From Anaerolineaceae bacterium (GTDB lineage Bacteria > Chloroflexota > Anaerolineae > Anaerolineales > Anaerolineaceae), in NCBI GenBank assembly GCA_016841365.1, contig JAENZI010000009.1, positions 1 to 64,000 on the forward strand: a DNA stretch of 64,000 nt, given 5' to 3'. Shown in pieces: positions 29,282 through 52,329 of the stretch. The notes under the pieces are model-generated. The model saw nothing but the letters and a program-made list of their open reading frames with translations, searched no databases and had not been told where the DNA came from. The translations under genes and the position numbers were made by a program. Position 1 is the stretch's first letter. Each line of letters opens with the position of its first letter.

Positions 29282-31918
29282 ATGCCACAACTAGCACCTC
29301 CTTTGGATTACTTACATGCCCTCAGTCGATATCAGTTTCTGACGATCGTAAACGCTGCCCATCAATGTGAGGAATACCAATTCGCTAAGCAAGCGGCTAT
29401 GCTGTGGCTCGTAAATTATCCGGGCGATCTTTACGTTCAGCACTTGCAGGCACTCACAATGAGTAAACTCAACAAAACGAACCAATCTGTCGAGCTTTTT
29501 GAAGGGTTGCTCGAACAAGATCCTCAATTTGTTGAGCCGGCTAAGGCGTTGACAGAAATCTTGCAGAATAAAGATAAGCGCCAAAGACACCAGGAAATTA
29601 TTCAATATCTGACAATGGCAAACCCGCCATCAGAATTGAAACAGAAATGGCTGACACCACTGTGGGATGCAAGGAATGAAATCTCTGCAGGAAAATTCGA
29701 GGCAGCGACCGCCTTGATTCATCAATCCCTGGTGAAGAATCCTACTTCGCCTATCCCTGCAATCCTGCATCTAAAACTCGCTTACAAGATGCAAAACCAG
29801 GAGATGCTGGCAAACCTGAGTGAGATCTACTACGAGAAATATCCGAAATGCCTACAAATCAACATCATTAAAGCGATTTCCGAAATCGACCAGGGACAAG
29901 AGTCCGCTGCCGTTGAACGCCTCCACTGGGCAGCAGCACATGACAGCGCAGGACAGGTGATCACACGGTTGATGGGAAATGATCATCGCTTTAAGAATTT
30001 ATGGCCAGAGACAATGGAAGTCCATTTCGACCTGCCCATTCCCGCCAGCGTCAGCTCATACCTCGGCTGGAATCAACTTCAATCCGGGGCAATGACCACC
30101 CCAGACTTCAAACAAGCAGGAAACCTGAAGAATATCTCACCAAAGGTTGATGAAGATACTCGTGAAATTAGGATCGTCCAAACCGATCAACCCATTGCGC
30201 CTAAAACGAAGAAATCAGTGGCGCAGGTTGAGCAATTACCTGCACAACATAAATCATACGCCACCCCAGAAGATTTCGAAGAAATTCAAAAGTCCTTCTC
30301 AAAATTGGCAAAACGCCTCAAGCAGCCTGATCTCGAAAGAGCCGATAATCGTTTCCCGGTATATGTGATCATGTCTTCTAAGAAGCAGCTCCAAAAGACC
30401 TATGGTGTAAATACCACCGCAGTCATCAATAACCATCTCCAGGATATGGCCAGCCTCATACAACAACTGCCCGACTGGGGTGCCAGGGTCTTCTTACCGG
30501 ATGACGCAGAACAGATGGCGAAATTAGGATTAAAACCAAGGATAGCCTCAGATGCCTGGCAGGTGAAACTTGCCCTAACGGATCTTGACCTGGCGCTGGC
30601 AAAGAATGGAGAGATGATTGGCGCGTTGCTGATTGTTGGCGGCCCCGGGATTATCCCCTTCCACCATCTGCCCAACCCTACACAGGATAACGATTTGGAT
30701 GTTCCCTCAGACAACCCTTACGCCACAATCGATGAAAACTATTTCATCCCGCAATGGCCTGTCGGCCGGTTGCCTGGCGAAAAAGGAACGGACTCGGGTC
30801 TGTTATTGTCACAGATCAGAAACTTGATCTACCAGTATGAAAATAAATCTAAGCAAGCAAAATCTGGCGGACTGAATCTCGCCAACCTGGTCAGTTGGGT
30901 ATTGTATCTCTTCTCCAATATCGGCAGAGGATTGAACAACAAAGAGAACTTGGGATATTCAGCTGAAATTTGGCAGGAACCATCTTCCAATGTTTATAAA
31001 ACCCTTGGCAAAGCGAAAGATTTGCAGTTATCGCCGCCAAAAGATACTGGAACCTTGGTGCTCAATAACAAATCGGCTCATAAGCTTGGTTACTTCAATC
31101 TGCATGGCGTCAAAGATGGCCCGCATTGGTATGGCCAGAAAGATTTCACATCTAATGCTGTCGGGCCGGATTACCCGATAGCTCTCAGTCCATCCATGTT
31201 TAACGAACGGATCCCTTCTCCAAAGTTCGTTCTCACTGAAGCCTGTTACGGGGCAAACGTGTTCGACAAAGCACATGACGAAGCCATGGCGCTCAAATTC
31301 CTTGATACTGGTACGATCTCGTTTATCGGTTCGACCTGTATCGCTTATGGCTCAGTCACCTTACCGCTGATCTCTGCCGATTACCTTGCGGACAAATTCT
31401 GGGAGCAAATTATGGAAGGTCAACCGGCAGGTTACGCATTGATGCGTGCCAAGCTTGATTTGGCCGAAGAAATGACGCTCACCCAGGGCTTTCTCGATGG
31501 CGAAGATCAGAAGACTTTACTTTCATTTGTCCTGTACGGTGACCCGCTTGCGGTTTACGACGGGCATCAAGCGATGCCAAAACCGCTCGCCAGGCTCAAA
31601 TCACACCCAACTTTGAAGACGATCAGCGATGCCGAAATGGAACCTTCGGATGGCGAGACGCAGATGCCTAAGAACCTTGATAAAGAGGTCAGAAATATCG
31701 TTGAAAAATATTTGCCGGGTCTGCATCATTCTCAAATGAACATCAATAAATCCATCTCCGAATATGAGCCAAAATCCGGAAGTAAATCAAAATCAGCAAG
31801 GTACATGGTTACACTGCAAAAATCAATTGATCAGGATCAATCCACTACACACTATCATTACGCACGGATGACATTCAATCGAAAAGGAAAATTGATCAAA
31901 TTCACAACATCCCGCTAA
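29282..31918 (+). CDS. TPR protein with a caspase-like (clan CD, C25/CHAT-type) cysteine peptidase domain
   Basis: This 878-residue protein has an N-terminal TPR region (about 1-230), a linker with charged segments (about 270-345), and a peptidase domain (about 355-765). The peptidase opens with the strand FPVYVIMSS. ALLIVGGPGIIPFHHLPNP and WPVGRLPGE follow, a layout seen in gingipain-type C25 peptidases. Next come the dyad H608 in YFNLHGVKDG and C655 in LTEACYGAN, 47 residues apart as usual for clan CD. A C-terminal alpha/beta region (about 800-878) follows. It has no signal peptide. Adjacent to the giant TPR gene, it is probably the effector. CHAT versus C25 cannot be decided by eye. Confidence 0.82.
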   Translation: MPQLAPPLDYLHALSRYQFLTIVNAAHQCEEYQFAKQAAMLWLVNYPGDLYVQHLQALTMSKLNKTNQSVELFEGLLEQDPQFVEPAKALTEILQNKDKRQRHQEIIQYLTMANPPSELKQKWLTPLWDARNEISAGKFEAATALIHQSLVKNPTSPIPAILHLKLAYKMQNQEMLANLSEIYYEKYPKCLQINIIKAISEIDQGQESAAVERLHWAAAHDSAGQVITRLMGNDHRFKNLWPETMEVHFDLPIPASVSSYLGWNQLQSGAMTTPDFKQAGNLKNISPKVDEDTREIRIVQTDQPIAPKTKKSVAQVEQLPAQHKSYATPEDFEEIQKSFSKLAKRLKQPDLERADNRFPVYVIMSSKKQLQKTYGVNTTAVINNHLQDMASLIQQLPDWGARVFLPDDAEQMAKLGLKPRIASDAWQVKLALTDLDLALAKNGEMIGALLIVGGPGIIPFHHLPNPTQDNDLDVPSDNPYATIDENYFIPQWPVGRLPGEKGTDSGLLLSQIRNLIYQYENKSKQAKSGGLNLANLVSWVLYLFSNIGRGLNNKENLGYSAEIWQEPSSNVYKTLGKAKDLQLSPPKDTGTLVLNNKSAHKLGYFNLHGVKDGPHWYGQKDFTSNAVGPDYPIALSPSMFNERIPSPKFVLTEACYGANVFDKAHDEAMALKFLDTGTISFIGSTCIAYGSVTLPLISADYLADKFWEQIMEGQPAGYALMRAKLDLAEEMTLTQGFLDGEDQKTLLSFVLYGDPLAVYDGHQAMPKPLARLKSHPTLKTISDAEMEPSDGETQMPKNLDKEVRNIVEKYLPGLHHSQMNINKSISEYEPKSGSKSKSARYMVTLQKSIDQDQSTTHYHYARMTFNRKGKLIKFTTSR

Positions 31919-31968
31919 TTTCCATTGGCTGATAAATCCATCCTCCTGAATCCAATCAGCCATATTAC

Positions 31969-32014
31969 AGAGATGCACAAAAACCCATTAATGTGCATCT
32001 CTGTTGCTTTTAAC
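31969..32014 (+). terminator. Terminator of the sigma-54-driven operon
   Basis: A perfect 11-bp stem (31969-31979 with 31992-32002) with a 12-nt loop is followed by GTTGCTTTTAA. It lies 51 bp after the peptidase stop codon and separates this operon from the next. Confidence 0.7.
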
Positions 32015-32032
32015 ATAGACAAACTCAAATGC

Positions 32033-32049
32033 TCACATAAATCATGTGA
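32033..32049. promoter_or_regulatory. Palindromic operator candidate upstream of the Moco-riboswitch operon
   Basis: TCACAT-AAATC-ATGTGA is a perfect 17-bp palindrome with 6-bp arms, placed about 31 bp upstream of the extended -10 element. The size and position suit a dimeric regulator site. No regulator gene is adjacent, and a chance palindrome cannot be excluded. Confidence 0.4.
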
Positions 32050-32079
32050 TGATACTCACTACTTAACGACATAGGCTCA

Positions 32080-32088
32080 TGATAAAAT
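32080..32088 (+). promoter_or_regulatory. Extended -10 promoter of the Moco-riboswitch operon
   Basis: TGATAAAAT is an extended -10 element (TGn plus TAAAAT). The start point would be near 32095, directly before the riboswitch. No clear -35 is visible. Confidence 0.5.
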
Positions 32089-32112
32089 CAATATGAAAAT
32101 GAATAATTAGCA

Positions 32113-32215
32113 TCTTCGAGTCTGTCTCCCTAAAGCACCGCCATGGATCTCAGACCGATAGGGTAAGAATGGAAACGTTCTTGCCTCCCGAATTTGGAAA
32201 GGAGATGAACGCAGG
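32113..32215 (+). promoter_or_regulatory. Molybdenum/tungsten cofactor (Moco/Tuco-type) riboswitch
   Basis: The leader has the architecture of the Moco RNA motif. An outer helix pairs GTCTCC (near 32123-32128) with GGAGAT (32201-32206), and an inner helix pairs CCCTA (32128-32132) with TAGGG (32159-32163). A GAAA-capped hairpin follows (AAGAA..TTCTT, 32165-32182), then the 3' core GCCTCCC with GGAAAGG. From memory, this 3' core closely resembles the moaA leader of E. coli. Downstream is a terminator/ribosome-site hairpin, so it can control the ECF operon. An Rfam covariance search would settle the class. Confidence 0.72.
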
Positions 32216-32245
32216 ACGATCGCTTGATGAATCGTTTAGTTTATG

Positions 32246-32278
32246 ATGCTCCTTTTCTATCAAAAAGGAGCATTTTTT
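32246..32278 (+). terminator. Riboswitch expression platform: terminator hairpin that hides the ribosome site
   Basis: A perfect 11-bp stem (32246-32256 with 32263-32273) and a T-run form an intrinsic terminator. Its right arm contains AAGGAG (32265-32270), the ribosome site of the TTG start at 32277. The hairpin can therefore block both transcription and translation of the ECF operon. Confidence 0.85.
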
Positions 32279-33653
32279 GTCTGTCCAGAAGCAATCTCAC
32301 AAAACACTCTACTTTTCAACCCGAGACTTACTCATCATGGCAGTCTTAGCCGCCTTAGGTGGTGTGACAAGTACATATATCAATACCATCAGCGATGCAG
32401 TACATGCCGCCCTTGGTTTCCCAGGTGCATCTCAATGGGCTGCCGGACTGCACGTGATTTGGATCGTTTTGGCGATGGGTATTCTGAGGAAACCTGGCAC
32501 AGGCACCGTGATGGGAATATTAAAGGGCGTTATCGAACTCATGAGCGGTAACAGTCACGGGGTCATCATCCTCCTTGTGGATTTGGTAGCCGGGATCCTC
32601 GTGGATTTTGGATTTCTGCTCTTTTCTAAAAAAAGGAACTTATTCCCATATCTTTTAGCTGGCGGTCTTGCCACAGGTTCAAATGTGCTCGTCTTTCAAC
32701 TCTTTGCCACCATCCCGACCAACATCCTGGGGATCAGTGCCATTCTCCTGTTCTTTTCCGTGGCATTCGCATCAGGTTTGATTTTTGCAGGCGTTGTCCC
32801 ATACCTGTTGGTCAATTCTCTGGCTAAAGCAGGCGTGGTCAAAACGCCCCCACAACCTGCACAAAGTCGAAAAATCGGTTGGTACATTCTTCTTGGGGTC
32901 ACGATCGCAGCTACATTGTTGGCAGTGATCATGCGCATAAACTACCAGGGACCTGACTCGATTCAAATTACCGGCGCGGTAAATACGCCATATGAATTCC
33001 CAAACCTAGAGTTCACCATCGAAAAAGTATCACGCCAGATGGAAGACAAAGGAATGATGGTTGAATATTCCGGATATCCTATGACCGAAATCATTGATTT
33101 TGCCGAACCTGTTGAAGGTGCAAACACCCTTCTGATTGAGGCATCTGACGGGTACGCTTTTCTGATTAGTTTTGATGAGCTTGAAAGCAATCCAAACATT
33201 CTAATCGTTGAACAAGGCAAAGGAAATAATGCTTCCTATGATGTCGTCGGACCAGAAAGCACAAAAGCCTGGGTTCGCAATGTAACCAGGTTGAATGTGA
33301 TTGCCGCTAAAGGTCTGACAATCATCACGCTGCAGGGAGAAAGAATCGAGTTTGATCCTGATGAGTGGGTGTCTCAAATGGATAGCACACAAATTTCGCT
33401 GCCCGATGGATCTCGCAAGTTACAAGGCGTACCTCTATGGAAGGTCCTTGAGCCGACCATTTCTGGTACAGACCCAAAGACAATCGTTTTTAATTCAAAT
33501 GAGGACACGCTTGAATTAGATTGGACTGAAATTGAGGATAATAACGATCTGAGGATCTTCACTGTTGTTGAAGAGGATGGCATCTCTTTCGCTCTGGCAG
33601 AAATGTCTGGCGAAGTAAAGTTATTCCCGCTTACAGAGATTGAGATTGAATAA
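32277..33653 (+). CDS. ECF transporter S component (YkoE-like) fused to a sulfite-oxidase-fold domain
   Basis: This 458-residue protein starts at TTG 32277, six bases after AAGGAG. Residues about 15-190 are a six-helix S component with the YkoE-like motif ILRKPGTGTVMGILKGVIE. A further helix (about 203-222) leads to an extracytoplasmic region (228-458) with two copies of the molybdopterin-oxidoreductase (PF00174-like) pattern: SIQITGAVNTPYEF, SGYPMTEII, ASDGYAFLI. The Mo-ligand cysteine of true sulfite oxidases is missing, so the domain probably binds a ligand. YkoE members handle thiamine precursors, but the Moco-type riboswitch and fused domain suggest a pterin cofactor. First gene of a seven-gene operon. 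Confidence 0.8.
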   Translation: MSVQKQSHKTLYFSTRDLLIMAVLAALGGVTSTYINTISDAVHAALGFPGASQWAAGLHVIWIVLAMGILRKPGTGTVMGILKGVIELMSGNSHGVIILLVDLVAGILVDFGFLLFSKKRNLFPYLLAGGLATGSNVLVFQLFATIPTNILGISAILLFFSVAFASGLIFAGVVPYLLVNSLAKAGVVKTPPQPAQSRKIGWYILLGVTIAATLLAVIMRINYQGPDSIQITGAVNTPYEFPNLEFTIEKVSRQMEDKGMMVEYSGYPMTEIIDFAEPVEGANTLLIEASDGYAFLISFDELESNPNILIVEQGKGNNASYDVVGPESTKAWVRNVTRLNVIAAKGLTIITLQGERIEFDPDEWVSQMDSTQISLPDGSRKLQGVPLWKVLEPTISGTDPKTIVFNSNEDTLELDWTEIEDNNDLRIFTVVEEDGISFALAEMSGEVKLFPLTEIEIE

Positions 33654-33656
33654 TCA

Positions 33657-35156
33657 ATGCATTGGGTTGATGTGCGTCAATTTTCTTACACCTATCCCGG
33701 CGAAGAAAGACCGGCACTCAAGGAGATTAATCTCTCACTGGAAATGGGTGAATTCGTTGTGATCACTGGTAAATCAGGCAGCGGCAAATCGACCTTTGGA
33801 AAGGCACTTGCAGGATTTCTCTTCCAGGACGAAGTGCCGCAATTTTCGGGCGAGATTGTCGTCAATGATACAGATATGACACAGCTTGCTCTATATGATG
33901 TCAGTGATCGTGTTGGTTATGTTCAACAAAACCCGGAGGATCAATTCTGTACCCTGACGGTGCTGGATGAAATTGCATTTGGGCTTGAAAACCAATGCAT
34001 GCCGCCAGAAGAAATCGAACAGCAAATTGATGATGCACTCAGAATCGTCAACGGCTTGGAGCTGAAATACCGCGAGTTATCAACGCTTTCCGGCGGCGAA
34101 AAGCAAAAAATTGCGATCGCTTCAATGCTTGCTCTTTCACCGGATGTACTGATACTGGATGAGCCCACATCAAACCTTGACCCTGTAGCCACGAAGCACA
34201 TCCTCGATACCCTCTACCAGATCCGGCTTGACCAACGATTAACAGTCATCATCATTGAGCACAAACTGGCGCAACTCATGCCGTTTAAACCCAAGCTTTT
34301 CGAAATTGAAGCAGGAGAATTACATTTCATGGACAACGCTAATTCCTCCCACCGCTCAAAAAATTCTGCGCCCGTAATAAATTCACCATCACAACAAAGT
34401 CAGAAACAAACAAGGCAACCAATTGTTCAACTTTCAAAAGTGAATGTCAATCGCGGCGGTAAACACATCCTGCATGATATCGATTTATGCCTGAAGCCAG
34501 GCGAATTTGTGGCATTAATGGGTGCAAACGGAAGCGGGAAAACCACACTGCTTGAAACCATCATGGGATTTCACAAATCAGCATCTGGGTCAGCTAAAGC
34601 CTTTGTGGAAAAGATCTCAGACACACCCATTACCGCTTTGGTCAATCAAATTGGATACATTTTTCAGAATCCTGACCACCAGTTATTCACACAATCCGTC
34701 TCGGAAGAAGCCGTTCTAACACTAAAGAACCTCAAACGATACACGGAAGAAAAGTTAACTTTAGCCAGGGATTTACTCACACAGATGGGTCTTCTTGAAA
34801 AGATCGATGCACACCCTCAGCGATTGAGTTATGGTGAAAAACGGCGACTTAATTTAATTGCTGCCATGCTGCACGATCCACAACTCTTGCTGATTGATGA
34901 ATTGTTGATTGGGCAAGACATGAAAAACGCCCACACCTGGATGATGTTGCTCAAGGAATACACGCAAATAGGCAACACAGTTCTGTTGATCAATCACCAT
35001 GCCGCCCTGACACAAACCTACTGTGACCGGGTGATCTTTCTTGAAGACGGCAAAGTGATCGTCGATCAACCAACATCTCAAGCGTTTGCAACCCTCTCTC
35101 TGCAGGGATATGCCCCCTTCTTACCGACATTCCAGTGGGAGCCTGCCCATGCGTAA
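33657..35156 (+). CDS. ECF transporter duplicated ATPase (EcfA-A')
   Basis: The 499-residue protein contains two ABC ATPase domains, energising the ECF transporter at the membrane. The first has Walker A GKSGSGKST (near residue 37), signature LSGGEKQKIAIA and Walker B LILDEPTSNLD. The second (from about 260) has GANGSGKTT, a less typical signature LSYGEKRRLNLIA and LLIDELLIG. The second domain lacks the usual DEPT, so it may be catalytically weaker. The 3-bp gap to the S component and an 8-bp overlap with the T component show one operon. Confidence 0.9.
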   Translation: MHWVDVRQFSYTYPGEERPALKEINLSLEMGEFVVITGKSGSGKSTFGKALAGFLFQDEVPQFSGEIVVNDTDMTQLALYDVSDRVGYVQQNPEDQFCTLTVLDEIAFGLENQCMPPEEIEQQIDDALRIVNGLELKYRELSTLSGGEKQKIAIASMLALSPDVLILDEPTSNLDPVATKHILDTLYQIRLDQRLTVIIIEHKLAQLMPFKPKLFEIEAGELHFMDNANSSHRSKNSAPVINSPSQQSQKQTRQPIVQLSKVNVNRGGKHILHDIDLCLKPGEFVALMGANGSGKTTLLETIMGFHKSASGSAKAFVEKISDTPITALVNQIGYIFQNPDHQLFTQSVSEEAVLTLKNLKRYTEEKLTLARDLLTQMGLLEKIDAHPQRLSYGEKRRLNLIAAMLHDPQLLLIDELLIGQDMKNAHTWMMLLKEYTQIGNTVLLINHHAALTQTYCDRVIFLEDGKVIVDQPTSQAFATLSLQGYAPFLPTFQWEPAHA

Positions 35157-35925
35157 ACTGGCGTATCAACCCGGAAATTCAATCATCCATCGGTTATACC
35201 CGGTGACGAAATTTGCCTGGCTGTTGCTCGGAACAGCCCTCCTTTTCGTACTGTCCAATGGATACTTGCTATTTCTGACCGCAATTTTCTTCATGCTGAT
35301 CTTGATCAGCATTGCACCCAAAATCTTCAGCATCCGGGGGTTTCGCTTGATCTTGTTTACTGGCACGATCTTGCTGCTGCTCTATATTATTTTCGACAAG
35401 GGCGGCGCTCTTTTGTTTGACCCGGGCGTGAATTTCTTAAGGATAACGAACGGGGGTCTACTGACGGGGTTACTGTTTAGCGGCAGGTTCCTCTCCATCG
35501 TTTTTCTCAGTTATCTCTTCATCCTTACAACTGAGCCCAACCAGTTAGCCTATGCGCTGATGAAACTTGGTCTGCCTTACCGCTTTGGTTTCATGTTGGT
35601 GACCGCTTTACGCCTTGCGCCAATCATGGAAGATGAAGGGCGGACGATCTACCATGCACAGTTAGTGCGCGGGATCAGGTATGACCAGGGTGGTTTCAAA
35701 AAAATCTTGCTTATGATCCAACAGTTTATGACCCCCCTGTTAATCAGCGCTTTACGCAGGGCTGATAAATTGGTTTTCAGCATGGAGGGGCGTGGATTCG
35801 GAAAGTATCAAACCAGAACCTTCAGGAGAACTGCCTCGCCAACCCGTCTTGATATCACCATATCTTTTGCATTATTAATTTTCTTTATTTTGATGATCGT
35901 CATTAACTATGGAGGTTTGATTTGA
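35149..35925 (+). CDS. ECF transporter T component (EcfT)
   Basis: The product is 258 residues from ATG 35149, with GTGGGAG upstream and an 8-bp overlap with the ATPase gene. Five or six membrane helices and the two cytoplasmic coupling helices are visible. The coupling motifs are seen as ALRLAPIMEDEGRTIYHAQLVRG and ALRRADKLVFSMEGRGFG, which correspond to the A-R-G/S-type motifs that contact the ATPases. It couples ATP hydrolysis to the S component encoded upstream. Its stop overlaps the next start (TTGA). Confidence 0.9.
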   Translation: MRKLAYQPGNSIIHRLYPVTKFAWLLLGTALLFVLSNGYLLFLTAIFFMLILISIAPKIFSIRGFRLILFTGTILLLLYIIFDKGGALLFDPGVNFLRITNGGLLTGLLFSGRFLSIVFLSYLFILTTEPNQLAYALMKLGLPYRFGFMLVTALRLAPIMEDEGRTIYHAQLVRGIRYDQGGFKKILLMIQQFMTPLLISALRRADKLVFSMEGRGFGKYQTRTFRRTASPTRLDITISFALLIFFILMIVINYGGLI

Positions 35926-36845
35926 AAGAGAAAAACCACAAGCATTGGTTCGTGTTATTGATCATTCTGGTAGTTGTTCTGGTTGGAGCGGTCATCGCAA
36001 TCATCATTTCAACAAAACCAACCCCGGTCGCCCTGTTTGAAGAATTTGGGGTCGGCATGCTGCTTGAAGAAGCCGAAACGATGAACGAGTGTGCTGAATG
36101 CCATAATAGCACTGATTTCCATACATGCGAAACATGCCATGATGACCATGGTGCCGTTGAATTAGCCGATGTAATGTTTTTTGAGGTCGTTGAGTTGACA
36201 GGTGATGTGCCTGACCCCTCCTTTGTACGGGTCAACGAAATCTTGCCAGATCAAAATAACCGGGGGACTCACATAACACTCTTTGAATTTCTCGAGAATC
36301 ACGGGATTGAAGAATTTGAGTCCGTGACCTTCACCACCAACGATGGCGGGCTTACAACCATTGAATCGCAATATCTGGATAAAACCGCAATGTTGGTGCC
36401 CTACATGGACGGTGTCAGATTCATTACCGAATCCGTGCATTCCTCCACCTGGCTTAAAGGCATCCAGCGCATCACCGTTGTGGGAAATGAAAATCCGCTG
36501 ACAATCGATGGCTATACGACATCTATCGGACGACTGCTTTTGGGCGATACCGTTCGCCTGACAGTCGAGGGGTCAGATGTGATGCTATCAGACGAAAGCG
36601 GAAAAACCAGCCACGCCTTCGTGGCAAACTGGGTAGAAGGCGCCCGCCTTGTAACACTACTCCAGAGCGATCCCGCCCAAGGCATCACAGTGACAGATGC
36701 TGACGGCGTAGCTACCGTCCTTACGTATGATGAAATTGCAGATGCGGTGATTGCCATTGTCAGGGATGAGGTCACATTGATCCTAACCGACCGCGGCCGC
36801 AGTGCCTGGCCAACCAAGATTACAAAAATCGAGGTCAATCAATGA
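35922..36845 (+). CDS. Membrane-anchored protein with two CxxCH heme-type motifs and sulfite-oxidase-fold-like domains
   Basis: The 307-residue protein starts at TTG 35922, behind GGAGG. Residues 9-30 are a membrane anchor. C57AECH61 and C69ETCH73 are two c-type heme motifs close together, followed by two tandem domains (about 80-190 and 195-307). The first includes RVNEILPDQ and FTTNDGGLTTI; both end in strands like WLKGIQRITVVG and WPTKITKIEVNQ, as in the PF00174-like lipoproteins nearby. A redox-linked binding protein outside the membrane is a reasonable reading. The ligand is unknown. The CxxCH pairs could alternatively bind metal. Confidence 0.65.
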   Translation: MKEKNHKHWFVLLIILVVVLVGAVIAIIISTKPTPVALFEEFGVGMLLEEAETMNECAECHNSTDFHTCETCHDDHGAVELADVMFFEVVELTGDVPDPSFVRVNEILPDQNNRGTHITLFEFLENHGIEEFESVTFTTNDGGLTTIESQYLDKTAMLVPYMDGVRFITESVHSSTWLKGIQRITVVGNENPLTIDGYTTSIGRLLLGDTVRLTVEGSDVMLSDESGKTSHAFVANWVEGARLVTLLQSDPAQGITVTDADGVATVLTYDEIADAVIAIVRDEVTLILTDRGRSAWPTKITKIEVNQ

Positions 36846-37981
36846 GACAAAATCATAAGAAATTATTCCTGATTGTATCTTTAGCCCTGATCACCCTACT
36901 TTCAGCATGCCAGCCAAAATGGGAAATTCAGTTAGCCGAAGCTAACGAGATTCTAGGAAATATCCAATATAAAGATGTGGTGGAATATATCGAAAAATCC
37001 GACAAGGAACTGCAGACCATACCATTAGGCCAGTTTCTTTATAACAGCGACTATACCTTAATTGACCAGGTTACTTTGATCACGGAATCCAACGATAGTG
37101 GATCGTTCAATTGGGATAGCATTGCGGCAGATGCTGCAATTTCTGCAGAAGGCGAAATCCTGATCAATGGTGAGGGATATCAACCTGCCACAATCAATGT
37201 TGAACCCTCCCCTTTGGCAGACACAATTGAGTATTCCATTATGGATATTGCACCCACTGTCGCCCAGATGATGGACTTACCCGGCCTGCCCGATGCAGTT
37301 GGTTCAGCCAGGATATCCAACACAGGAGACTACGAACATGCAGTGATGATCCTGTTAGACGGTGTTCAATATGAAAAACTTCAATCTCTTGTCAACGCAG
37401 GTGAAATGCCCTTCTTTGAAAGGTTCGACACCATCGAACAGGGCATCACAGTTTTCCCACCAGTGACAACTTCATCAACAGCCGCCTTTCTGACAGGTGC
37501 GCCGCCACAGGCAAATGGCGTTTTTGGCTACGGATACCGATCGACAGAGCTGACCACATTATTCGATGTTGCTGTTGAAGCAGGCAAAACGGTCAAAGCG
37601 GTTGAAGGGTATGGTTTAGCATTCAATTTACGGAATGCCGATGTCACACTGAGTGGAGATCTGGATAACAATGGCTACACCAACGACAATGTCTTTGAAA
37701 ATAGCATGGAAGTTATCCAAACCGAGATGCCCGACCTGCTTTATATTCACTTCCATGATGTTGATGATATGGGGCACGAGTTCGGTCCCAATTCAGAGGA
37801 ATATGAAACTGCCCTGATCCAGGTGGGCGGACACCTTGCGGAAATTTACGATGCGCTACCACAAAATACTTTTATTGTCATCTTTGCAGATCATGGTATG
37901 CACACAACCAATGAAGGCGGCAACCATGGCACATTAATGTCACTCGACATGATCATTCCAATCTTATTTTTCTCAAAATAA
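36842..37981 (+). CDS. Alkaline-phosphatase-superfamily phosphodiesterase lipoprotein
   Basis: The 379-residue lipoprotein has a signal peptide ending in the lipobox LSAC (Cys about residue 22). Residues about 30-130 resemble the small domain of neighbouring proteins (VTLITESNDSGSFNW). The catalytic domain (about 145-379) has type I phosphodiesterase/nucleotide pyrophosphatase motifs: metal Asp in MILLDGVQ, nucleophile Thr in TSSTAAFLTG, HDVDDMGHEFG with Asp and His ligands, FADHGMH, and NHGT. It would work outside the membrane. Inside a Moco-type operon it could split or dephosphorylate a pterin dinucleotide before uptake, but that is inference. It overlaps the previous gene by 4 bp (ATGA). 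Confidence 0.8.
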   Translation: MRQNHKKLFLIVSLALITLLSACQPKWEIQLAEANEILGNIQYKDVVEYIEKSDKELQTIPLGQFLYNSDYTLIDQVTLITESNDSGSFNWDSIAADAAISAEGEILINGEGYQPATINVEPSPLADTIEYSIMDIAPTVAQMMDLPGLPDAVGSARISNTGDYEHAVMILLDGVQYEKLQSLVNAGEMPFFERFDTIEQGITVFPPVTTSSTAAFLTGAPPQANGVFGYGYRSTELTTLFDVAVEAGKTVKAVEGYGLAFNLRNADVTLSGDLDNNGYTNDNVFENSMEVIQTEMPDLLYIHFHDVDDMGHEFGPNSEEYETALIQVGGHLAEIYDALPQNTFIVIFADHGMHTTNEGGNHGTLMSLDMIIPILFFSK

Positions 37982-37991
37982 AGGAGATTTT

Positions 37992-38486
37992 ATGAAGAAA
38001 AACACGATTAACTTTAAGACAAAAGCCATCTGGCTCATCTTTATCATCATCCCGCTTATGCTTGCCGCTTGCGGAGGTGCCCCAAAAGTTGATTGGGAGC
38101 TGTCCATCTCAGGAGATGTGGACAACCCGACAACGTACACTTTTGATGAATTAGCCAAAATGGAATTGGTTAATTTAGATGACGTTCTCATGGAAAAATC
38201 CCGCGGCGAAGATGAGGTCCGCTCATTCAGCGGAATCCCTCTGGAGGACTTGTTAGCAGCAGCAGGCGCGCCTGAGGATTACAGCACAATTACAGCCATG
38301 GCAGCCGATGGATATGCCATCGAAATTTCGAAGGATGAAATGGTTGATGGAATCGTCGCGATCAAGCAAAGCGGCGAATGGATTGTTGATGCTGATCCAG
38401 GGGCTGGCCCCATTCGTCTGGTCTTCCCCTTGACACCTGCTAATCGGTGGGTATTTCAAATCACCGAAATTATCGTAAACCAATAA
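37992..38486 (+). CDS. Lipoprotein with molybdopterin-oxidoreductase (sulfite-oxidase)-like fold
   Basis: The 164-residue lipoprotein (lipobox LAAC) has the PF00174-like pattern almost in full: WELSISGDVDNPTTYTFDELAKM, then FSGIPLEDLLAAAG, AADGYAIEIS, GPIRLVFPL and WVFQITEIIV at the end. The residue that ligates Mo in sulfite oxidase is a Cys in the first third; there is none here beyond the lipobox. A non-catalytic, cofactor-like ligand binder at the cell surface is plausible. It is 10 bp after the phosphodiesterase gene. Confidence 0.8.
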   Translation: MKKNTINFKTKAIWLIFIIIPLMLAACGGAPKVDWELSISGDVDNPTTYTFDELAKMELVNLDDVLMEKSRGEDEVRSFSGIPLEDLLAAAGAPEDYSTITAMAADGYAIEISKDEMVDGIVAIKQSGEWIVDADPGAGPIRLVFPLTPANRWVFQITEIIVNQ

Positions 38487-38517
38487 ACCAAATATTTTTA
38501 CAGAAAGAAGGAAAACC

Positions 38518-38928
38518 ATGAAAAAATTCTCGTTGGTAATTAGCTTGTTCGTTTTACTCGCTCTGCTGACAGCCTGCGGCGGTCAGACAAGTGAGCCCAT
38601 CTTAACCGTTGGCGATAAGGGATATACAAAGACAGACCTTGAGGGTTTGGGCACCATGTCCGCAGATTACACTAACAAAGATGGCGAAACCACATCCTAC
38701 ACCGGTGTGTCCTTATCTGCTCTTTTGGAAGATGCCGGATTAGCCAGTGGCGGTGAAATCCTGGTCTTCACTGCCTCCGATGGCTACCAAGCCGACATGG
38801 CATTGGCAGATGCACTTGCCTGTGCAAATTGTATCGTCGCCTTCGATGAGGACATTCTCCGCATGGTCTTGCCAGATATGTCATCAAAACTGCAAGTTAA
38901 AGATGTGATCGAAATATCAGTTGAATAA
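38518..38928 (+). CDS. Small lipoprotein with molybdopterin-oxidoreductase-like fold
   Basis: The 136-residue lipoprotein (lipobox LTAC) is a shorter version of the preceding gene product: ILTVGDKGYTKTDLEGL, YTGVSLSALLEDAG, ASDGYQADM and VKDVIEIS follow the same order. A CANC pair (about residue 101-104) is extra. It is probably a paralogue arisen by tandem duplication and serves as another surface binding protein. It is the last gene of the operon; the cobalamin-riboswitch promoter begins 53 bp later. Confidence 0.78.
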   Translation: MKKFSLVISLFVLLALLTACGGQTSEPILTVGDKGYTKTDLEGLGTMSADYTNKDGETTSYTGVSLSALLEDAGLASGGEILVFTASDGYQADMALADALACANCIVAFDEDILRMVLPDMSSKLQVKDVIEISVE

Positions 38929-38980
38929 TTATCCGCAAGATCTGACTATTGAACTTCATGAATAAGGTCACATCATTTGA

Positions 38981-39009
38981 TTGACAACCTGATGAAGAAT
39001 CATTAGAAT
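38981..39009 (+). promoter_or_regulatory. Sigma-70-type promoter of the cobalamin-riboswitch operon
   Basis: A perfect TTGACA (38981-38986), a 17-bp spacer and TAGAAT (39004-39009) give an expected start near 39016, just before the riboswitch. Confidence 0.85.
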
Positions 39010-39031
39010 AAGAACAACATCAGAAAACAGC

Positions 39032-39148
39032 CATAAAGGGTGCACCTCTGCCCGGATGCAAGGTGCCTAAGGGGGGAAGCTGGTGCAAGTCCAGCACTGT
39101 CCCGCAACGGTAACACCATTGGTGAAGTCCGATAACCCGCCCTTTATG
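39032..39148 (+). promoter_or_regulatory. Cobalamin riboswitch
   Basis: The leader carries the B12-box core GTCCCGCAACGGTAA-type segment, preceded by GGAAGCTGGTGCAAGTCC and followed by AAGTCCGATAACCCGCC. These are the conserved strands of the cobalamin riboswitch. The closing helix is formed by AAAGGG near 39035 and CCCTTT near 39140. It is followed by an intrinsic terminator before the transcobalamin-like gene. Class is certain from the core; subtype (AdoCbl or other corrinoid) is not. Confidence 0.95.
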
Positions 39149-39241
39149 ACCCAAAAACTTCGTGGAAAGGCAAGTTGGGTACCGGTTGAACACATTTATC
39201 AATCGGCATCATCCTGCCGCCCATCATGGGCGGATTTGGAT

Positions 39242-39275
39242 TAAACGACCTTTTCACACAGGTCGTTTATTGCTT
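39242..39275 (+). terminator. Attenuator terminator of the cobalamin riboswitch
   Basis: A perfect 10-bp stem (39242-39251 with 39260-39269) with an 8-nt loop is followed by TTGCTT. It lies directly upstream of the AAGGAG site of the next gene, so it is the likely expression platform. The T-run is short. Confidence 0.7.
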
Positions 39276-39287
39276 AAGGAGTCTTCG

Positions 39288-41735
39288 ATGTCAATTGAAA
39301 TTAAAAAGTCTGGCGTTATCTTCTTCCTTTTGTTTGCGATCGTATTTACCAGCTTCTCGAACATATCTGCGCACCCGATCGCTTCCGTTTCACGCCAAGA
39401 TGATCTCAATACGTATGTTGAAAAAGGCATCAATTACATTGCCAGCCAGATGAATGAGGATGGGGGCATTCGGTGGATGGATGAGACATCAGATGTGCCA
39501 ACCACCATCAAGGTGGTGATTGCGTTAGCTGCCAACGGCTACCCCCAGGACCACCTGATCAGTCAGAATGGGAATCGTCCCATTGATTTTCTCATAAATG
39601 CAGGTTATGAGTGGGTTTTTCAAACAGGTTCTGACAATCCGGGCTTCAACACAGCCCGAGCCGGGCAATTATTGACAGCGGTGTCTGCTGCCAATGAAAA
39701 CCCTCATTCCTTCGGCGATGAGGGCATTGATCTGATTGCTGAAATAAAAAACCATTACGACCTAAACACCGGCATCATTGGCGCAGCCACACCACAAAAC
39801 GTCACCGACCAGGTTTGGGCAATCTTAGGGTTGGCAGCCAGCTACGCCTCAATCCCTGAAGAATCAACTTCATGGTTGGCAAACGCCCAACTGGAGGACG
39901 GATCCTGGGATGATGGGTATGGCAGCTACCTGGATGTGACACCGCTGGCAATCATGGCGCTGGTGGCATCGGGGGATGGAAGCACATATGAGGAACAATT
40001 ACAGAAATCTATCTCATTTTTAAAGACAAACCAACAGGCTAATGACGGTTGGCAAACCCAATGGGATTCCACAACCAATGCCAACACAACCGGAGTCATT
40101 CTCCAGGCAATCTACGCGCTAGGGCAGCAGTCTACAGGGGAATTGTGGGTGCAGGATGGAGGCACGACTATCGATGCACTTCTGGAGTTACAGCAGGCTG
40201 ATGGTGCCATTGGCGGAGATTTTGCCAACACTTATTCGACCGCTGATACATTGATCGGCATCTCGGGCGAACCCCTGTTCAACCTTAGCAGAGTGAGACG
40301 GCTCAATTTGGCTATTGACTTTATCAAGGCCTCTCAAAGTCAGGATGGCGGCTGGGGCAGCGTCGGGCAGACCGTTGACATCATGCTCGCCCTGAAAGCA
40401 GCCGGTTGGAACCCCAACACCATGACCGCTGGAGAGCAAACACCTCTGGACTATGTTGCCGCTAACCTGGAGGAATACACAAAGTCCGGACCGGATGCCA
40501 TTGGCAAAATCATCCTTGGGCTTGTTGCGGCTGGTGCTGATCCAACGAACTTTGCCGATCGAGACCTGGTTGCTGAACTGTTAGCCGCATATGATCCATC
40601 CCTGAAGGCCTTTGGCGTGCCAGATAACACCTGGCATCAGGCTTTATCGATCCTTGGCCTCAGTGCCGCTGAAACCCCACCACCACAAGAAGCAGTTGAA
40701 ACTTTGATCGGCTTACAACAAGCAGATGGCGGTTGGGAGTATGCGCCCGGTTTTGGCACAGCCCCCGACAACACGGCACTGGCAATCCAGGCAATCGTCA
40801 CATCCGGTTTAGGACTCGATAATAGAGCGATACAAGATGCATTAGCCTATCTTAAACTAAAGCAAGCGCCTGATGGCGGATGGGGTGATTCAAGCTCAAT
40901 AGCCTTTGCCCTTATGGCGATCAATGCCCTCGGAGCGTCTGGGCAAGATTGGGCGACAACAGCAGGCAAAACACCGGAATCGGCCCTATTTAACTTCCAA
41001 AAACCCAATGGCGCATTTTTCTTCAATCCTGAATTCACGGATGACAATCTCATGTCGACTGCAACGGCGATCATTGCATCCCTCAACGCAAATTACATCG
41101 TCTCCGATGAAAGCTACTCACAAGAAAACCAAGCCGGCTTGGTAATTGACCCGGGTGATCAGCCCTGGCAGACGGCCTGCATCAGCTTTACAAGCGACAC
41201 CCTGACCGGAGCCGAATTATTAGAGAGATCAGGCTTTGATTATCAGAGCGACAGCGGTTTTATCATCAGCATAATGGATATTTCAAACCAAGACGGCGAA
41301 ACAAATTATTGGTCTTATTGGCATTGGGATGGACGTGAATGGGTCTTCAATAACAGCGGTGCATCGGATACAGAAGTACCCGCTGGCGCGATACAGGCAT
41401 GGCATTTCACCAGTTGGGAGCAGTTTCCCTCTTTACCGCCCGATGGAATCCCGAATTTAATTGAGATTTGCGGTCAGTTAACGCTTAAGAATTACAACGA
41501 AATGCCATATATCAATTACGCCGACATTACCAAACAAACGAGCGAACAGCCCTCCAAACCCATAGAAGAAACCCAAACGCCTACGATTATTACTGGGGCT
41601 CCCGGCGAACATATTACCCTAACAACCACACCCGAAGCGCCTTCCGATCAACCATCGATGCTGCCAATCCTGATCATCGCCGGCGGAGGTCTCCTTCTTC
41701 TCGGTTTGTTCTTCTATTTTCGAAAGCGCGCATGA
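39288..41735 (+). CDS. Surface-anchored transcobalamin-like corrinoid-binding protein
   Basis: The product is 815 residues from ATG 39288 (AAGGAG upstream; an earlier in-frame start lies in the riboswitch). A signal peptide (about 8-30) precedes an alpha/alpha-barrel region (about 35-620) with eight or more repeats of the type LLELQQADGAIGG and FIKASQSQDGGWG. A DUF4430 domain follows (about 623-730; GAELLERSGF, NYWSYWHWDG). Then come a Pro/Thr linker and a C-terminal membrane anchor (about 788-811). Barrel plus DUF4430 is the architecture of animal transcobalamin and intrinsic factor. The cobalamin riboswitch and ECF genes make corrinoid capture the likely role. Overlaps the S component by 4 bp. 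Confidence 0.85.
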   Translation: MSIEIKKSGVIFFLLFAIVFTSFSNISAHPIASVSRQDDLNTYVEKGINYIASQMNEDGGIRWMDETSDVPTTIKVVIALAANGYPQDHLISQNGNRPIDFLINAGYEWVFQTGSDNPGFNTARAGQLLTAVSAANENPHSFGDEGIDLIAEIKNHYDLNTGIIGAATPQNVTDQVWAILGLAASYASIPEESTSWLANAQLEDGSWDDGYGSYLDVTPLAIMALVASGDGSTYEEQLQKSISFLKTNQQANDGWQTQWDSTTNANTTGVILQAIYALGQQSTGELWVQDGGTTIDALLELQQADGAIGGDFANTYSTADTLIGISGEPLFNLSRVRRLNLAIDFIKASQSQDGGWGSVGQTVDIMLALKAAGWNPNTMTAGEQTPLDYVAANLEEYTKSGPDAIGKIILGLVAAGADPTNFADRDLVAELLAAYDPSLKAFGVPDNTWHQALSILGLSAAETPPPQEAVETLIGLQQADGGWEYAPGFGTAPDNTALAIQAIVTSGLGLDNRAIQDALAYLKLKQAPDGGWGDSSSIAFALMAINALGASGQDWATTAGKTPESALFNFQKPNGAFFFNPEFTDDNLMSTATAIIASLNANYIVSDESYSQENQAGLVIDPGDQPWQTACISFTSDTLTGAELLERSGFDYQSDSGFIISIMDISNQDGETNYWSYWHWDGREWVFNNSGASDTEVPAGAIQAWHFTSWEQFPSLPPDGIPNLIEICGQLTLKNYNEMPYINYADITKQTSEQPSKPIEETQTPTIITGAPGEHITLTTTPEAPSDQPSMLPILIIAGGGLLLLGLFFYFRKRA

Positions 41736-42538
41736 AAAAACAACTCCTTGGCGCATTGGCCGACTTGATCGTTCTAGTCATCGGAGTTTTGAGCCTGCTG
41801 TCGCCTTTTATTTTCCCTGGACTGCGTAGCGCTGAAACATTCAGCAACACCTTTCCGCTGATGGTCAGTTTGATCATCATCCTGTGTCTTCTAATTCTCT
41901 TCTACGAGACCCAGGAGACGCTACTTGACAGCAAAATTATCGCATTTTTAGGCGTTTTGATCGCCATCAATGCCGCCCTCCGTTTTCTCGAAACTGCAAT
42001 CCCGGGTCCAGCCGGCTTTAGCCCAACCTTCTTCCTGATCATTCTCACCGGATATTTCTTTGGCAGCCGAATTGGCTTTCTGATGGGCGCGATGACCATG
42101 TTCGTGTCGGGTTTGATCACTGGCGGCGTCGGCCCATGGCTGCCCGGCCAAATGATCACCGCTGGCTGGGTCGGGCAAAGCGCAGCCATACTCAAGGTGT
42201 TCAACAAAAAAGCACAGTGGCAGGGAAAAGCACCCGAGATTATTACGTTGGCTGCCTTTGGCGCGGTTTGGGGTTTGGTCTATGGGATGATCATGAACCT
42301 CTGGTTTTGGCCATTTTTAGCAGGGGCACCCGGGCAAATCTGGCTTCATTCTGCCTACATCGGCATAAATTTCCAGCGTTATCTGGCTTATTACCTGGCA
42401 ACCTCATTGGTTTGGGATATAACCCGGGCGATTGGCAATATCCTGATCACCAGTGTCATGGCCAAACCTGTGATCAAAATTTTGAAAAGATTTACCACAC
42501 GGTTTTCATTTGACTATCGAGAACAACACCAATCATGA
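41732..42538 (+). CDS. ECF transporter S component, corrinoid-type by context
   Basis: The 268-residue protein has six to seven membrane helices. Conserved glycine-rich transmembrane segments include FGSRIGFLMGAMTMFVSGLITGGVGPWLPGQ, typical of large S components such as the CbrT type. It would bind a corrinoid delivered by the adjacent transcobalamin-like protein and carry it with the T and A components encoded next. The ATG overlaps the preceding stop (ATGA), and the same occurs with the T gene. Specificity is inferred from the riboswitch rather than from residues. Confidence 0.82.
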   Translation: MKKQLLGALADLIVLVIGVLSLLSPFIFPGLRSAETFSNTFPLMVSLIIILCLLILFYETQETLLDSKIIAFLGVLIAINAALRFLETAIPGPAGFSPTFFLIILTGYFFGSRIGFLMGAMTMFVSGLITGGVGPWLPGQMITAGWVGQSAAILKVFNKKAQWQGKAPEIITLAAFGAVWGLVYGMIMNLWFWPFLAGAPGQIWLHSAYIGINFQRYLAYYLATSLVWDITRAIGNILITSVMAKPVIKILKRFTTRFSFDYREQHQS

Positions 42539-43557
42539 AAAATACTTATTCCTGGGTTCTTTGGCTGGCCTCATCCTTATTGATCATCCTCTCCACGCGC
42601 AATCCCTTTTACCTGTTAATTCTTCTCATCAATCTGTTCATCACCGGTCAGCAATTAGCAAAGCGCGAAAATCACCCCCTTTGGGCGTTGCACAACTTCA
42701 GATTTTTACTGACCATGCTGATCTTATCGGCATTGATCAACACACTGTTCACCCACACAGGCCGATCCGTCATCTTTTCGCTGCCGGAAAACTGGCTGTT
42801 GATCGGCGGGAATATCACCTATGAGAGCTTGGTTTTTGGGCTGATCAACGGATTTGTGATTGGGGGCATCTATATTGCCTTCAACATCATCAACCTGGCG
42901 TTAAGCATCAAACAATTAACGCACCTGATTCCCAAAGCCTTCCGCCCCATCGGCATGACAGCCACAATTGCACTAACATTTTTCCCCTCCATCCAACAAA
43001 GGGCGCGTGAGATCAAAGAAGCGCAGATGATCCGTGGCAATCCAATGAAACGTATCTCGGATTGGGTTCCACTGTTCATCCCTCTCCTGGTGACCAGCCT
43101 CGAAAACGCCATCCTGCTGTCTGCTTCGATGACCTCCCGTGGCTTTTATCGGCAGCAATCGGAATCAACCATGTCCGATCTACCACTGATCAGCCTGATC
43201 CTCTCAGCATTTATGGTATTCTCGGGCTGGATCTTAAGAATGTATGACTATCCGAAATTAATTAGCATCCTTCTCTACATTGCGGCTGCTACCATAATTT
43301 TCCTAACATTGTTTTTGACCGGACGGCGATCGCAAGCGACGCAGTATCATCAGGAAATCTGGCAGAAAAAAGACATCTTAGCATCGGTTCTTTTTATAGC
43401 AGCAGTCCTTATCTGGAATCTTGTGAAGTATTACAATCTAATCCCCTCTCTTTCTTATTCACCCTACCCCGAACTTCCATTCCCTGATATTCAGCCAGCT
43501 TACATTTTTTTCTTGTTCGTGCCTCTATTACCTGTCCTTTTACAATCTGATGATTAA
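42535..43557 (+). CDS. ECF transporter T component
   Basis: The 340-residue membrane protein has about eight hydrophobic helices. The cytoplasmic coupling helices are visible around residues 150-215: FPSIQQRAREIKEAQMIRG and SLENAILLSASMTSRGF, which hold the two short A-R-G/S-type motifs that bind the ATPase. It is longer than usual (about 260) because of extra C-terminal helices. It overlaps the S gene by 4 bp and the ATPase gene by 8 bp. Confidence 0.85.
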   Translation: MKNTYSWVLWLASSLLIILSTRNPFYLLILLINLFITGQQLAKRENHPLWALHNFRFLLTMLILSALINTLFTHTGRSVIFSLPENWLLIGGNITYESLVFGLINGFVIGGIYIAFNIINLALSIKQLTHLIPKAFRPIGMTATIALTFFPSIQQRAREIKEAQMIRGNPMKRISDWVPLFIPLLVTSLENAILLSASMTSRGFYRQQSESTMSDLPLISLILSAFMVFSGWILRMYDYPKLISILLYIAAATIIFLTLFLTGRRSQATQYHQEIWQKKDILASVLFIAAVLIWNLVKYYNLIPSLSYSPYPELPFPDIQPAYIFFLFVPLLPVLLQSDD

Positions 43558-45157: not shown

Positions 45158-45406
45158 TAAATTCCATTATGGTAAAATAATTTCGGCATAGTTTGTGAAA
45201 ATATTAACAAATTTAATACTTGATATTACTCATACAGGATTATTACATCCTTCACTATTGATTTTTGGGGAGCATGAGTATAAATAGACTGCATGAATGA
45301 TTTTTTTGAATTCTTAGACTGAGTAATCATTACAAATCGTTAATAAAGCATTGATCTGGTGCAGAAAACTAAACATCCTTCACGCCAAATTAAGGAGAGT
45401 GTTCAA
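45158..45406 (+). promoter_or_regulatory. Intergenic promoter region of the AOR-Hdr operon
   Basis: This 249-bp AT-rich gap must contain the promoter for the 10-kb redox operon. A TATAAA (45279-45284) with a TTGATT 15 bp upstream is only a weak candidate. Inverted copies of ATTACTCA (45225-45232) and TGAGTAAT (45320-45327) flank it, 87 bp apart, and could be operator half-sites. No riboswitch or ORF is evident. Confidence 0.4.
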
Positions 45407-47293: not shown

Positions 47294-47304
47294 GGAGATA
47301 AATA

Positions 47305-47817
47305 ATGGTTGCTTCTACATCAAAGTTCAAATATATCGTTTGTGATCCTGAGTTGTGCATCGGATGCCAATTGTGTGAATACGTTTGTTCTTACACAAAG
47401 ACGGGTGAATTTAACTCATACCGCAGCCGAATCCGCACGGTTAGGGTGGATGAGGTTCTGATCACGGCTGTGGCGTGCCGCACCTGTGAAAACGCACCCT
47501 GTGTTGCTGCCTGCACCCGCAATGCCCTGACGCAGGACCCCGAATCGGGCATCATCCGCATCGATCCTGCCAAGTGTGATGGTTGTGCCTGGTGCATTGA
47601 AGCCTGTGATTTTGGCGCGATCACGATCAATCATCAAACCAAACTGGCTGAATTCTGCAATCAATGTGAAGATGTTGAAGGCGGTCCGCAATGTGTTTTG
47701 ATTTGCCCTAAGGACGCCCTGGAATACACTACCCCCGATCAAAGATCACAGCGCACGCGCCGTAAGCTGGTCGAAAGCAGCATAGAATTTCCACAAAAAG
47801 CTAAGGATCCTCGATGA
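47305..47817 (+). CDS. Four-cluster ferredoxin subunit (HycB/BamC-like)
   Basis: The 170-residue protein is of the DMSO-reductase-B/HycB type. Four cysteine groups are visible: CIGCQLCEYVC, CRTCENAPCVAAC, CDGCAWCIEAC and CNQCEDVEGGPQCVLIC, enough for four 4Fe-4S clusters. It would carry electrons between the AOR subunit and HdrA. It has an AAGGAG site and overlaps the hdrA start (ATGA), which shows tight coupling. Confidence 0.92.
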   Translation: MVASTSKFKYIVCDPELCIGCQLCEYVCSYTKTGEFNSYRSRIRTVRVDEVLITAVACRTCENAPCVAACTRNALTQDPESGIIRIDPAKCDGCAWCIEACDFGAITINHQTKLAEFCNQCEDVEGGPQCVLICPKDALEYTTPDQRSQRTRRKLVESSIEFPQKAKDPR

Positions 47818-52318: not shown

Positions 52319-52329
52319 GGAAAAATCTG

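Follow-up and report, generated by a model that had tools for sequence, protein, structure and literature searches.

Analysis of a 64,000-nucleotide stretch of an Anaerolineaceae bacterium (GCA_016841365.1, contig JAENZI010000009.1, positions 1-64,000; hereafter the window, its own genome being labelled G000) revealed an operon at 32102-38928, on the forward strand, that we interpret as an uptake system for a molybdenum or tungsten (Mo/W) pyranopterin cofactor, most likely the tungsten form (Tuco), with a probability of roughly 0.7. The molybdenum cofactor (Moco) is usually treated as made by each cell for itself. The core of the argument is that a genome with a Moco-type riboswitch and aldehyde ferredoxin oxidoreductase (AOR) genes, in which Moco synthesis genes are not found, must obtain the ligand from outside, and that the gene set under the riboswitch is that of an importer. 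What was read from sequence is the class of the riboswitch, the terminator, the genes present, the protein fold, and a genome with AOR in which MoaC and MoeA are missing and no MoaA exceeds the cut-off. The sequence-only reading had already proposed pterin-cofactor uptake, which the leader, the genome test and a fold whose Cys-less member PruR binds pterins now support.

The operon opens with an RNA leader that had been taken for a Moco-type element. It indeed passes the RF01055 covariance model at 32102-32220 (74.6 bits, E 3.5e-16, gathering threshold 36). A chance match was ruled out by this score and by the presence of the riboswitch upstream of the gene for the transporter's S component at 28 of the 31 Chloroflexota loci of related operons. 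Helix P3 is deleted in the covariance-model alignment of the window aptamer, and is also lacking in 25 of 28 Chloroflexota and eight of eight Bacillota aptamers (11 assigned by regular expression, the remainder by eye). Such P3-lacking aptamers were correlated with Tuco rather than Moco by their discoverers, a rule that is itself correlational (PMC2408646). Among the exceptions listed in the same paper are two P3-lacking RNAs from Syntrophomonas wolfei that sit on genes called 'sulphite oxidase'; these genes may encode Cys-less binders of the sulfite oxidase (SUOX) fold of the type described below. A second Moco riboswitch match in the window's genome (G000:C13:74882-75035) lies below the gathering threshold at 32.0 bits, and two other genomes, G053 and G126, have unusually many matches, ten and seven respectively (E up to 0.001).

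Downstream of the aptamer, an intrinsic terminator with a 12-bp stem and a U-run was located at 32245-32274. The 3′ strand of the aptamer, GGAAAGGAG (32196-32204), is a candidate antiterminator arm, forming a nine-base pairing with one G-U pair with CTCCTTTTC (32249-32257) in the terminator 5′ arm. As a plain terminator scan of 31800-39200 showed no excess (7 versus 6.5 in shuffles), the terminator was called from its position and from the comparison of 28 leaders. A terminator lies within 75 nt of the aptamer in 20 of these 28, whereas 40 dinucleotide shuffles gave 0.5 on average and never more than 3. A complement of at least 7 nt to the aptamer strand was likewise found in 20 of the 28 (shuffles: mean 9.6, maximum 14), some of these complements pairing with the U-run through G-U. 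Because the aptamer strand and the terminator offer alternative pairings, cofactor binding would most likely switch the operon off.

The transporter is of the energy-coupling factor (ECF) type, with S, A and T components encoded together. The S component (32277-33653) matches the YkoE family PF09819 over residues 16-132 (E 5.4e-21) and is fused to Cys-less SUOX/PruR-fold domains. Its listed TTG start at 32277 falls at the terminator U-tract, and a Shine-Dalgarno-like AAAGGAG lies in the terminator 3′ arm, which leaves the start codon in doubt. The A component (33657-35156) contains two fused ATPase domains (PF00005 twice; TIGR04520 over cut-off), and the T component (35086-35925) belongs to the CbiQ family (PF02361, E 9.9e-36), its true start lying probably inside the listed open reading frame. 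The fusion of the S component to a SUOX-fold domain, proposed from the sequence alone together with the A and T components, was confirmed with a purpose-built hidden Markov model (HMM): two SUOX-like domains follow the S part in 29 of 29 complete Chloroflexota-type loci, and one in non-Chloroflexota loci. The window S protein stands outside that count and aligns end to end with the 29 counted proteins.

Four further genes complete the operon. The first (35922-36845) encodes a membrane-anchored protein with two CxxCH motifs, found by motif search; of 20 relatives, 15 also have two and the other five have one. Its similarity to the SUOX-fold domains, an earlier suggestion, is likely rather than certain: the SUOX HMM matches 12 of the 20 relatives, while the protein itself gave no Pfam match better than E 0.098, three relatives gave none, and a PDB search returned nine-haem cytochromes only, at E 0.07 or worse. 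The second (36842-37981) is, as predicted, a lipoprotein phosphodiesterase or nucleotide pyrophosphatase of the alkaline phosphatase superfamily (PF01663, E 2.2e-23). The motifs HxxDxx[GA]H and DHGxH, which we take to be those of the metal site, are present in the window protein and in 15 and 14 of its 16 relatives respectively, two of these relatives being cut short; a strict regular expression for the Thr/Ser nucleophile motif matched the window protein and three of the 16. The last two genes encode the two further SUOX/PruR-fold lipoproteins that had been foreseen, lipoprotein 1 (37992-38486; PF00174 Oxidored_molyb, E 4.5e-13), whose sole Cys is that of the lipobox, and lipoprotein 2 (38518-38928; PF00174, E 1.4e-5). 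In four loci, a Hdr/GlpC-like membrane protein with 4Fe-4S and two CCG domains, and in one case a NarI-like part, is encoded inside the importer operon (L036 8942-10864, L037 8226-10148, L038 8698-10587, L093 9929-12040; L### denotes loci); it lies between the transporter genes and the CxxCH gene in four of the five loci with a single-CxxCH protein.

Fold assignments were examined with AlphaFold models of fair to good quality (mean predicted local distance difference test 87.9 for S and 81.0 for lipoprotein 1). Foldseek placed YkoE (5edl) at the top for the S model, followed by sulfite dehydrogenases, 1xdy/1xdq (YedY) and, at weaker scores, PruR, and it returned the same SUOX group and PruR for lipoprotein 1. 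In VIA-align, the lipoprotein 1 model superposed on PruR 7kos with Z 13.4 (root-mean-square deviation, rmsd, 2.9 over 118 residues) and on SoxCD with Z 15.8 (rmsd 2.6 over 128 residues), and the best PDB profile match of the lipoproteins is PruR 7kos (E 6.6e-10 with the family profile). According to profile alignments, the canonical position of the Mo-ligand Cys is empty and the loop that bears it is missing. The claim that all these domains lack this Cys therefore stands for the canonical position, with the qualification that the lipoprotein 2 family conserves a CxxC elsewhere (8 of 8 sequences). PruR, also without the Mo-ligand Cys, was reported to bind reduced pterins (PMC13259868).

It is distinctly unlikely that the SUOX-fold proteins are instead extracellular redox enzymes or pterin sensors, with the ECF transporter carrying another pterin or a metal and the riboswitch controlling mere cofactor users. 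The CxxCH motifs, the Hdr-like electron-transfer proteins of four loci and a likeness of lipoprotein 1 to the NCBIfam diheme GEGP family (E 2.7e-9, far below its cut-off) would fit such a role, as would the description of PruR as a sensor partner (PMC13259868). Set against this are the missing Mo-ligand Cys with its deleted loop and the fusion of the SUOX domain to S itself; AOR-bearing genomes without Moco synthesis would also be left unexplained.

The window's genome provides such a case, being 98% complete in 19 contigs. A first AOR is encoded in the window, outside the operon, at 45359-47293 (forward strand; PF01314 E 1e-106, PF02730 E 1.4e-67), and is the likely client of the imported cofactor; a second lies at G000:C16, clustered with genes for RraA-like, Ldh_2 and alcohol-dehydrogenase proteins. 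MoaC, MoeA and MoaE were not found in G000, and MoaA was not found over the TIGR02666 cut-off used throughout (MoeA being judged by MoeA_N), its best match of E 4.6e-18 being taken as general radical-SAM level. With two AOR and neither MoaA, MoaC nor MoeA, G000 has the gene complement of a Moco auxotroph. Both of its SBP_bac_11 proteins are of sulfate and phosphate types, and no ModA, WtpA or TupA was seen. At high concentration, molybdate can also enter through sulfate systems (PMC2408646), and this route is a loophole in the argument from missing Mo/W uptake. A 2026 paper attributes TupABC to virtually all microbes that possess class I-IV tungsten oxidoreductases (PMC13328260), so G000 would be odd unless it takes up the cofactor whole.

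The genome test was extended to a sample of 150 genomes of the same class, Anaerolineae (labels G###). The S protein is matched in 26 of them and over its whole length in eight, the window's included, which are counted as importer genomes. MoaC, MoeA and AOR were tested in 29 of the 150, namely these eight and the 21 non-importer genomes in which no moaA passed the cut-off, and Fisher tests treat genomes as independent, kinship being ignored. Among the eight, moaA over cut-off, MoaC and MoeA_N are all absent in five (G000, G043, G075, G100 and G134, with 2, 8, 10, 11 and 11 AOR copies) and all present in three (G007, G059 and G091, with 9, 12 and 8). Among the 142 non-importer genomes, only one of the 21 without moaA, G004 (70% complete), also lacks MoaC and MoeA and has AOR. 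The combination of AOR with none of the three synthesis genes thus occurs in 5 of 8 importer and 1 of 142 other genomes (p 5.6e-7). Conversely, the importer is carried by five of the six AOR-positive genomes lacking all three, versus 3 of 144 others. When completeness of at least 90% and contamination of at most 5% were required, the figures were 3 of 4 versus 0 of 99 (p 2.3e-5).

A scan of GTDB genome contigs yielded 68 importer loci, spanning Chloroflexota, Bacillota, Bipolaricaulota/Acetothermia, Thermoplasmata and Asgard archaea. Seven repeat class genomes and eleven (L098, L107, L109, L111, L114, L118, L121, L126, L129, L130, L135) lie outside the genome searches, giving 50 further genomes and, with the eight of the class sample, to which the completeness values apply, 58 importer genomes. 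In the further 50, all three synthesis genes are lacking in 25 and AOR is present in 48; in the whole set, the figures are 30 and 56 of 58. Taxonomically, these 30 are Anaerolineaceae and other Chloroflexota, together with five Bacillota, four Bipolaricaulota/Acetothermia and six archaea. The occurrence of such operons in genomes with AOR or Mo enzymes and no full moa/moe set, which had been named as a check of the uptake proposal, is thus far above expectation. For the archaea, MoaA may fall below the TIGR02666 cut-off, which 7 of 14 controls pass; MoaC and MoeA_N were detected in the four archaeal controls, and MoeA is described as missing from most members of three Thermoplasmatota groups generally (PMC11733289). 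On a tree of 51 of the 56 aligned S sequences, the five dropped having no genome search, the label 'lack' or 'have' (the latter meaning not lacking all three) needs 11 changes, at least 10 of them on well-supported branches; some of these changes may be gaps in metagenome-assembled genomes (MAGs).

Import of a metal-free precursor, molybdopterin or cyclic pyranopterin monophosphate, from which the cell would complete the cofactor, is unlikely, with some genomes of a suitable gene content. Five (G157, G162, G163, G165 and G180) have MoeA and neither MoaC nor MoaA over cut-off, and are possible users of an imported metal-free pterin; two others (G175 and G176) have MoaE without MoaC and MoeA. 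In G000, there is no MoeA, no MoaE match and no dedicated Mo/W oxyanion binder, so metal insertion would have no visible route there. The absence of MoaE says little by itself, since it is missing even in G007, G059 and G091, which have moaA, moaC and moeA; it was found in 10 of the 58 importer genomes and does not separate auxotrophs from synthesisers. Matches to PF13531 (SBP_bac_11) occur in 55 of the 58, too broad a marker for oxyanion uptake. One of the two in G134 was typed as phosphate, and two of the four in G075 as one unmatched and one phosphate-like under cut-off; the absence of Mo/W binders is established for G000 alone because only there are the matches fully typed.

Comparison of the loci added regulatory and gene-content evidence for the uptake of a pyranopterin cofactor. 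RNA families were scanned in the loci other than L126, L128 and L135, and neighbouring SUOX-domain, phosphoesterase and kinase genes were counted with purpose-built HMMs within 6 kb of S. The three Chloroflexota loci without the riboswitch (L078, L082 and L085) form one clade of the S tree. Among 21 Bacillota loci, six have the Moco riboswitch at the head of the S operon. In G043, G075 and G100, SUOX lipoproteins that stand alone on the same contigs are preceded by Moco riboswitches of their own, two in tandem in G100. Outside Chloroflexota, a further SUOX-domain protein lies near S in 35 of 38 loci and a calcineurin-like phosphoesterase in 21 of 38, sharing one protein with a SUOX domain in 14. 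A phosphoesterase of an unrelated superfamily at the same place would be expected if removal of phosphate or a nucleotide belongs to uptake. An APH/RIO-like kinase, found in 10 of 38 loci, would restore a phosphate inside the cell. Neighbouring tungstate or molybdate genes also count in favour of the cofactor: in Pelotomaculum (L101), two TupA-like proteins are encoded directly upstream of S, behind a TIGR02141 molybdate-type permease (over cut-off) and a ModC-like ATPase, and the G059 operon is followed downstream first by a gene for a TupA-like protein with a fused SUOX domain and then by moaA (for these TupA-like proteins NF041772, below its cut-off, is the sole NCBIfam match at the thresholds used).

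Several observations weigh against the uptake of such a cofactor. First, free Moco is labile. Secondly, the site of PruR itself was said to be too small for Moco (PMC13259868). Thirdly, the scan found no Moco riboswitch for 15 of the 21 Bacillota loci, nor for any of the 14 archaeal and Bipolaricaulota loci that it covered. Fourthly, the tungstate or molybdate genes near S in L101 and G059 would also fit another Mo/W-linked substrate. Two Acetothermia loci have thiamine-type ABC genes divergent near S, L128 with a thiamine-binding protein over cut-off (TIGR01254), and L122 with the same permease and ATPase type and a thiamine pyrophosphate (TPP) riboswitch on that opposite strand; this may be chance or a hint of thiamine transport. 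Finally, in the genome test, absence of moaA alone associates only modestly with the importer (p 0.004), and 28 of the 58 importer genomes retain at least one of MoaA, MoaC and MoeA, so the importer is not confined to auxotrophs. The moa/moe genes lie within 5 kb in G007 and most genomes are MAGs, so that one gap could remove all three and their absences are not independent. The retained synthesis genes, the prevalence of MAGs and the clustering would favour an explanation by assembly gaps, in which the ECF system is a scavenging accessory of unspecified substrate. We consider this exceedingly improbable, given the completeness of G000, the recurrence of the triple absence in five of the eight class importer genomes and the 11 label changes on the S tree.

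A YkoE-like S component suggests thiamine or its precursor hydroxymethylpyrimidine (HMP) as the cargo, the Moco leader then being incidental. In profile searches of the PDB, the S part indeed matches YkoE (5edl) best (E 3.2e-17). In YkoE, thiamine is held by Trp49, Tyr46, Glu77, Gln95 and Asp131 (PMC5037267). In the 56 aligned relatives, the equivalents of these positions, mapped by eye from the profile alignment with YkoE, are His for Trp49, Ala or Ser for Tyr46 and Gln for Asp131 in 56 of 56, and Glu77 is kept in 56 of 56. The Gln95 equivalent is Ala in 28 of 29 and Gly in 1 of 29 Chloroflexota, and Gln in 21 of 27 and Glu in 6 of 27 others. The window S protein thus keeps one of the five thiamine-contacting residues. 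Lys83 and His94 are invariant in the relatives and do not occur at these places in YkoE. The kept aminopyrimidine contact within a new and more basic surround would suit an anionic pterin. Chloroflexi thiamine transporters were described as TPP-regulated (PMC3766115), and none of the scanned loci has a TPP riboswitch on the S strand; the link at genome level is to AOR and missing Moco synthesis. The phosphatase and the APH-like kinase would also suit thiamine. Thiamine transport, which the sequence-only reading had named as the rival view, was nevertheless rejected as the main reading on the grounds of the replaced contacts and the regulation, and is weakened to the point of being very improbable.

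For the system as a cofactor importer, we infer the following route, including the identity of the ligand, its metal being already in place, and the inward direction of transport. Surface SUOX/PruR-fold domains would bind the extracellular cofactor, the phosphodiesterase at the surface would trim a nucleotide or phosphate off it, and the ECF transporter, whose S component bears further SUOX-fold domains, would move it into the cytosol. There, it would serve the AOR enzymes and, on binding the leader, favour the terminator and shut the operon off. The CxxCH protein and, in four loci, the Hdr-like protein could keep the dithiolene reduced, which is a guess. Where synthesis genes are not found, as in G000, import would be the sole source of cofactor. 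The two unrelated surface phosphoesterases and the APH-like kinase point to a route of trimming, import and rephosphorylation. Whether the operon represents a class of importers for intact, metal-loaded W/Mo pyranopterin in at least five phyla of bacteria and archaea, enabling free-living anaerobic auxotrophs, making the cofactor a shared commodity and explaining part of the 'orphan molybdoprotein' genomes, is in our judgement an evenly balanced question.

Two neighbouring gene groups deserve mention. At 39021-45157 lie a cobalamin riboswitch (64.9 bits) and an operon whose products are a toroid protein resembling squalene cyclase and the ECF components S, T and A, likely a B12 salvage system adjoining the Moco operon; a cobalamin riboswitch and a toroid gene also follow the Moco operon in L069, L072 and L073. 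At 45359-54202, the AOR gene lies beside Fer4, FAD, FlpD/Hdr-like (Hdr/Mvh-type) and NAD-binding electron-transfer genes, suggestive of an electron-bifurcating type.

In agreement with the earlier statement that no Moco importer of this kind was known, no description of a microbial one was found among the open-licence PubMed Central papers searched. The only 'molybdopterin import cluster' that they contained is a gene label, given without argument, in a genome note on Desulfitobacterium (PMC4511579); another paper offers the speculation that outer-membrane T11SS proteins take up molybdopterin (PMC12282271). In a 2013 RNA-regulon survey, the functional table includes Moco synthesis and has no category of Moco uptake (PMC3766115). 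A 2018 survey counted several hundred organisms with molybdoproteins and an incomplete Moco pathway, most without a known Mo transporter, for which it could suggest only new synthesis components or Mo-independent proteins (PMC6147048). A 2022 paper stated that exogenous Moco uptake had not been examined or observed outside Caenorhabditis elegans (PMC9793310), and a 2026 review that how pterins cross membranes is unknown (PMC13259868). The operon offers concrete, testable proteins for three gaps, namely orphan molybdoprotein genomes, Moco uptake and the passage of pterins across membranes.

Among known systems, the group I ECF thiamine/HMP transporter YkoEDC shares the S family PF09819, its fold, and separate A and T subunits; the present system differs by largely replaced thiamine contacts, C-terminal SUOX-fold domains, a Moco rather than a TPP riboswitch, and extra surface proteins. 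The SUOX enzymes (SoxCD, sulfite dehydrogenase, YedY) share the fold, with Z up to 15.8, and a tryptophan/basic strand near the C-terminus, whereas the proteins described here have no Mo-ligand Cys and, presumably, no room for the second domain of those enzymes. TupABC, ModABC and WtpABC also belong to Mo/W metabolism, some of them under the control of Moco riboswitches, but they carry the oxyanion, and their binding proteins were not seen in G000. The neighbouring B12 operon has a parallel salvage logic of riboswitch, surface binding protein and ECF transporter, with a cobalamin riboswitch and a toroid-type binding protein instead. PruR is likewise a Cys-less, exported SUOX-fold protein of about 150 residues, a periplasmic pterin binder whose partner is a c-di-GMP regulator and whose ligands are small pterins (PMC13259868), whereas the domains here are fused to or encoded with an ABC importer and a phosphoesterase. 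Dietary Moco acquisition by C. elegans also uses external Moco, in an animal and by a carrier described as unknown (PMC9793310). Judged on its genes, the operon is YkoE-type in its S component, departs from thiamine transporters in both pocket residues and regulation, and would act like an ECF vitamin importer with a new class of substrate.

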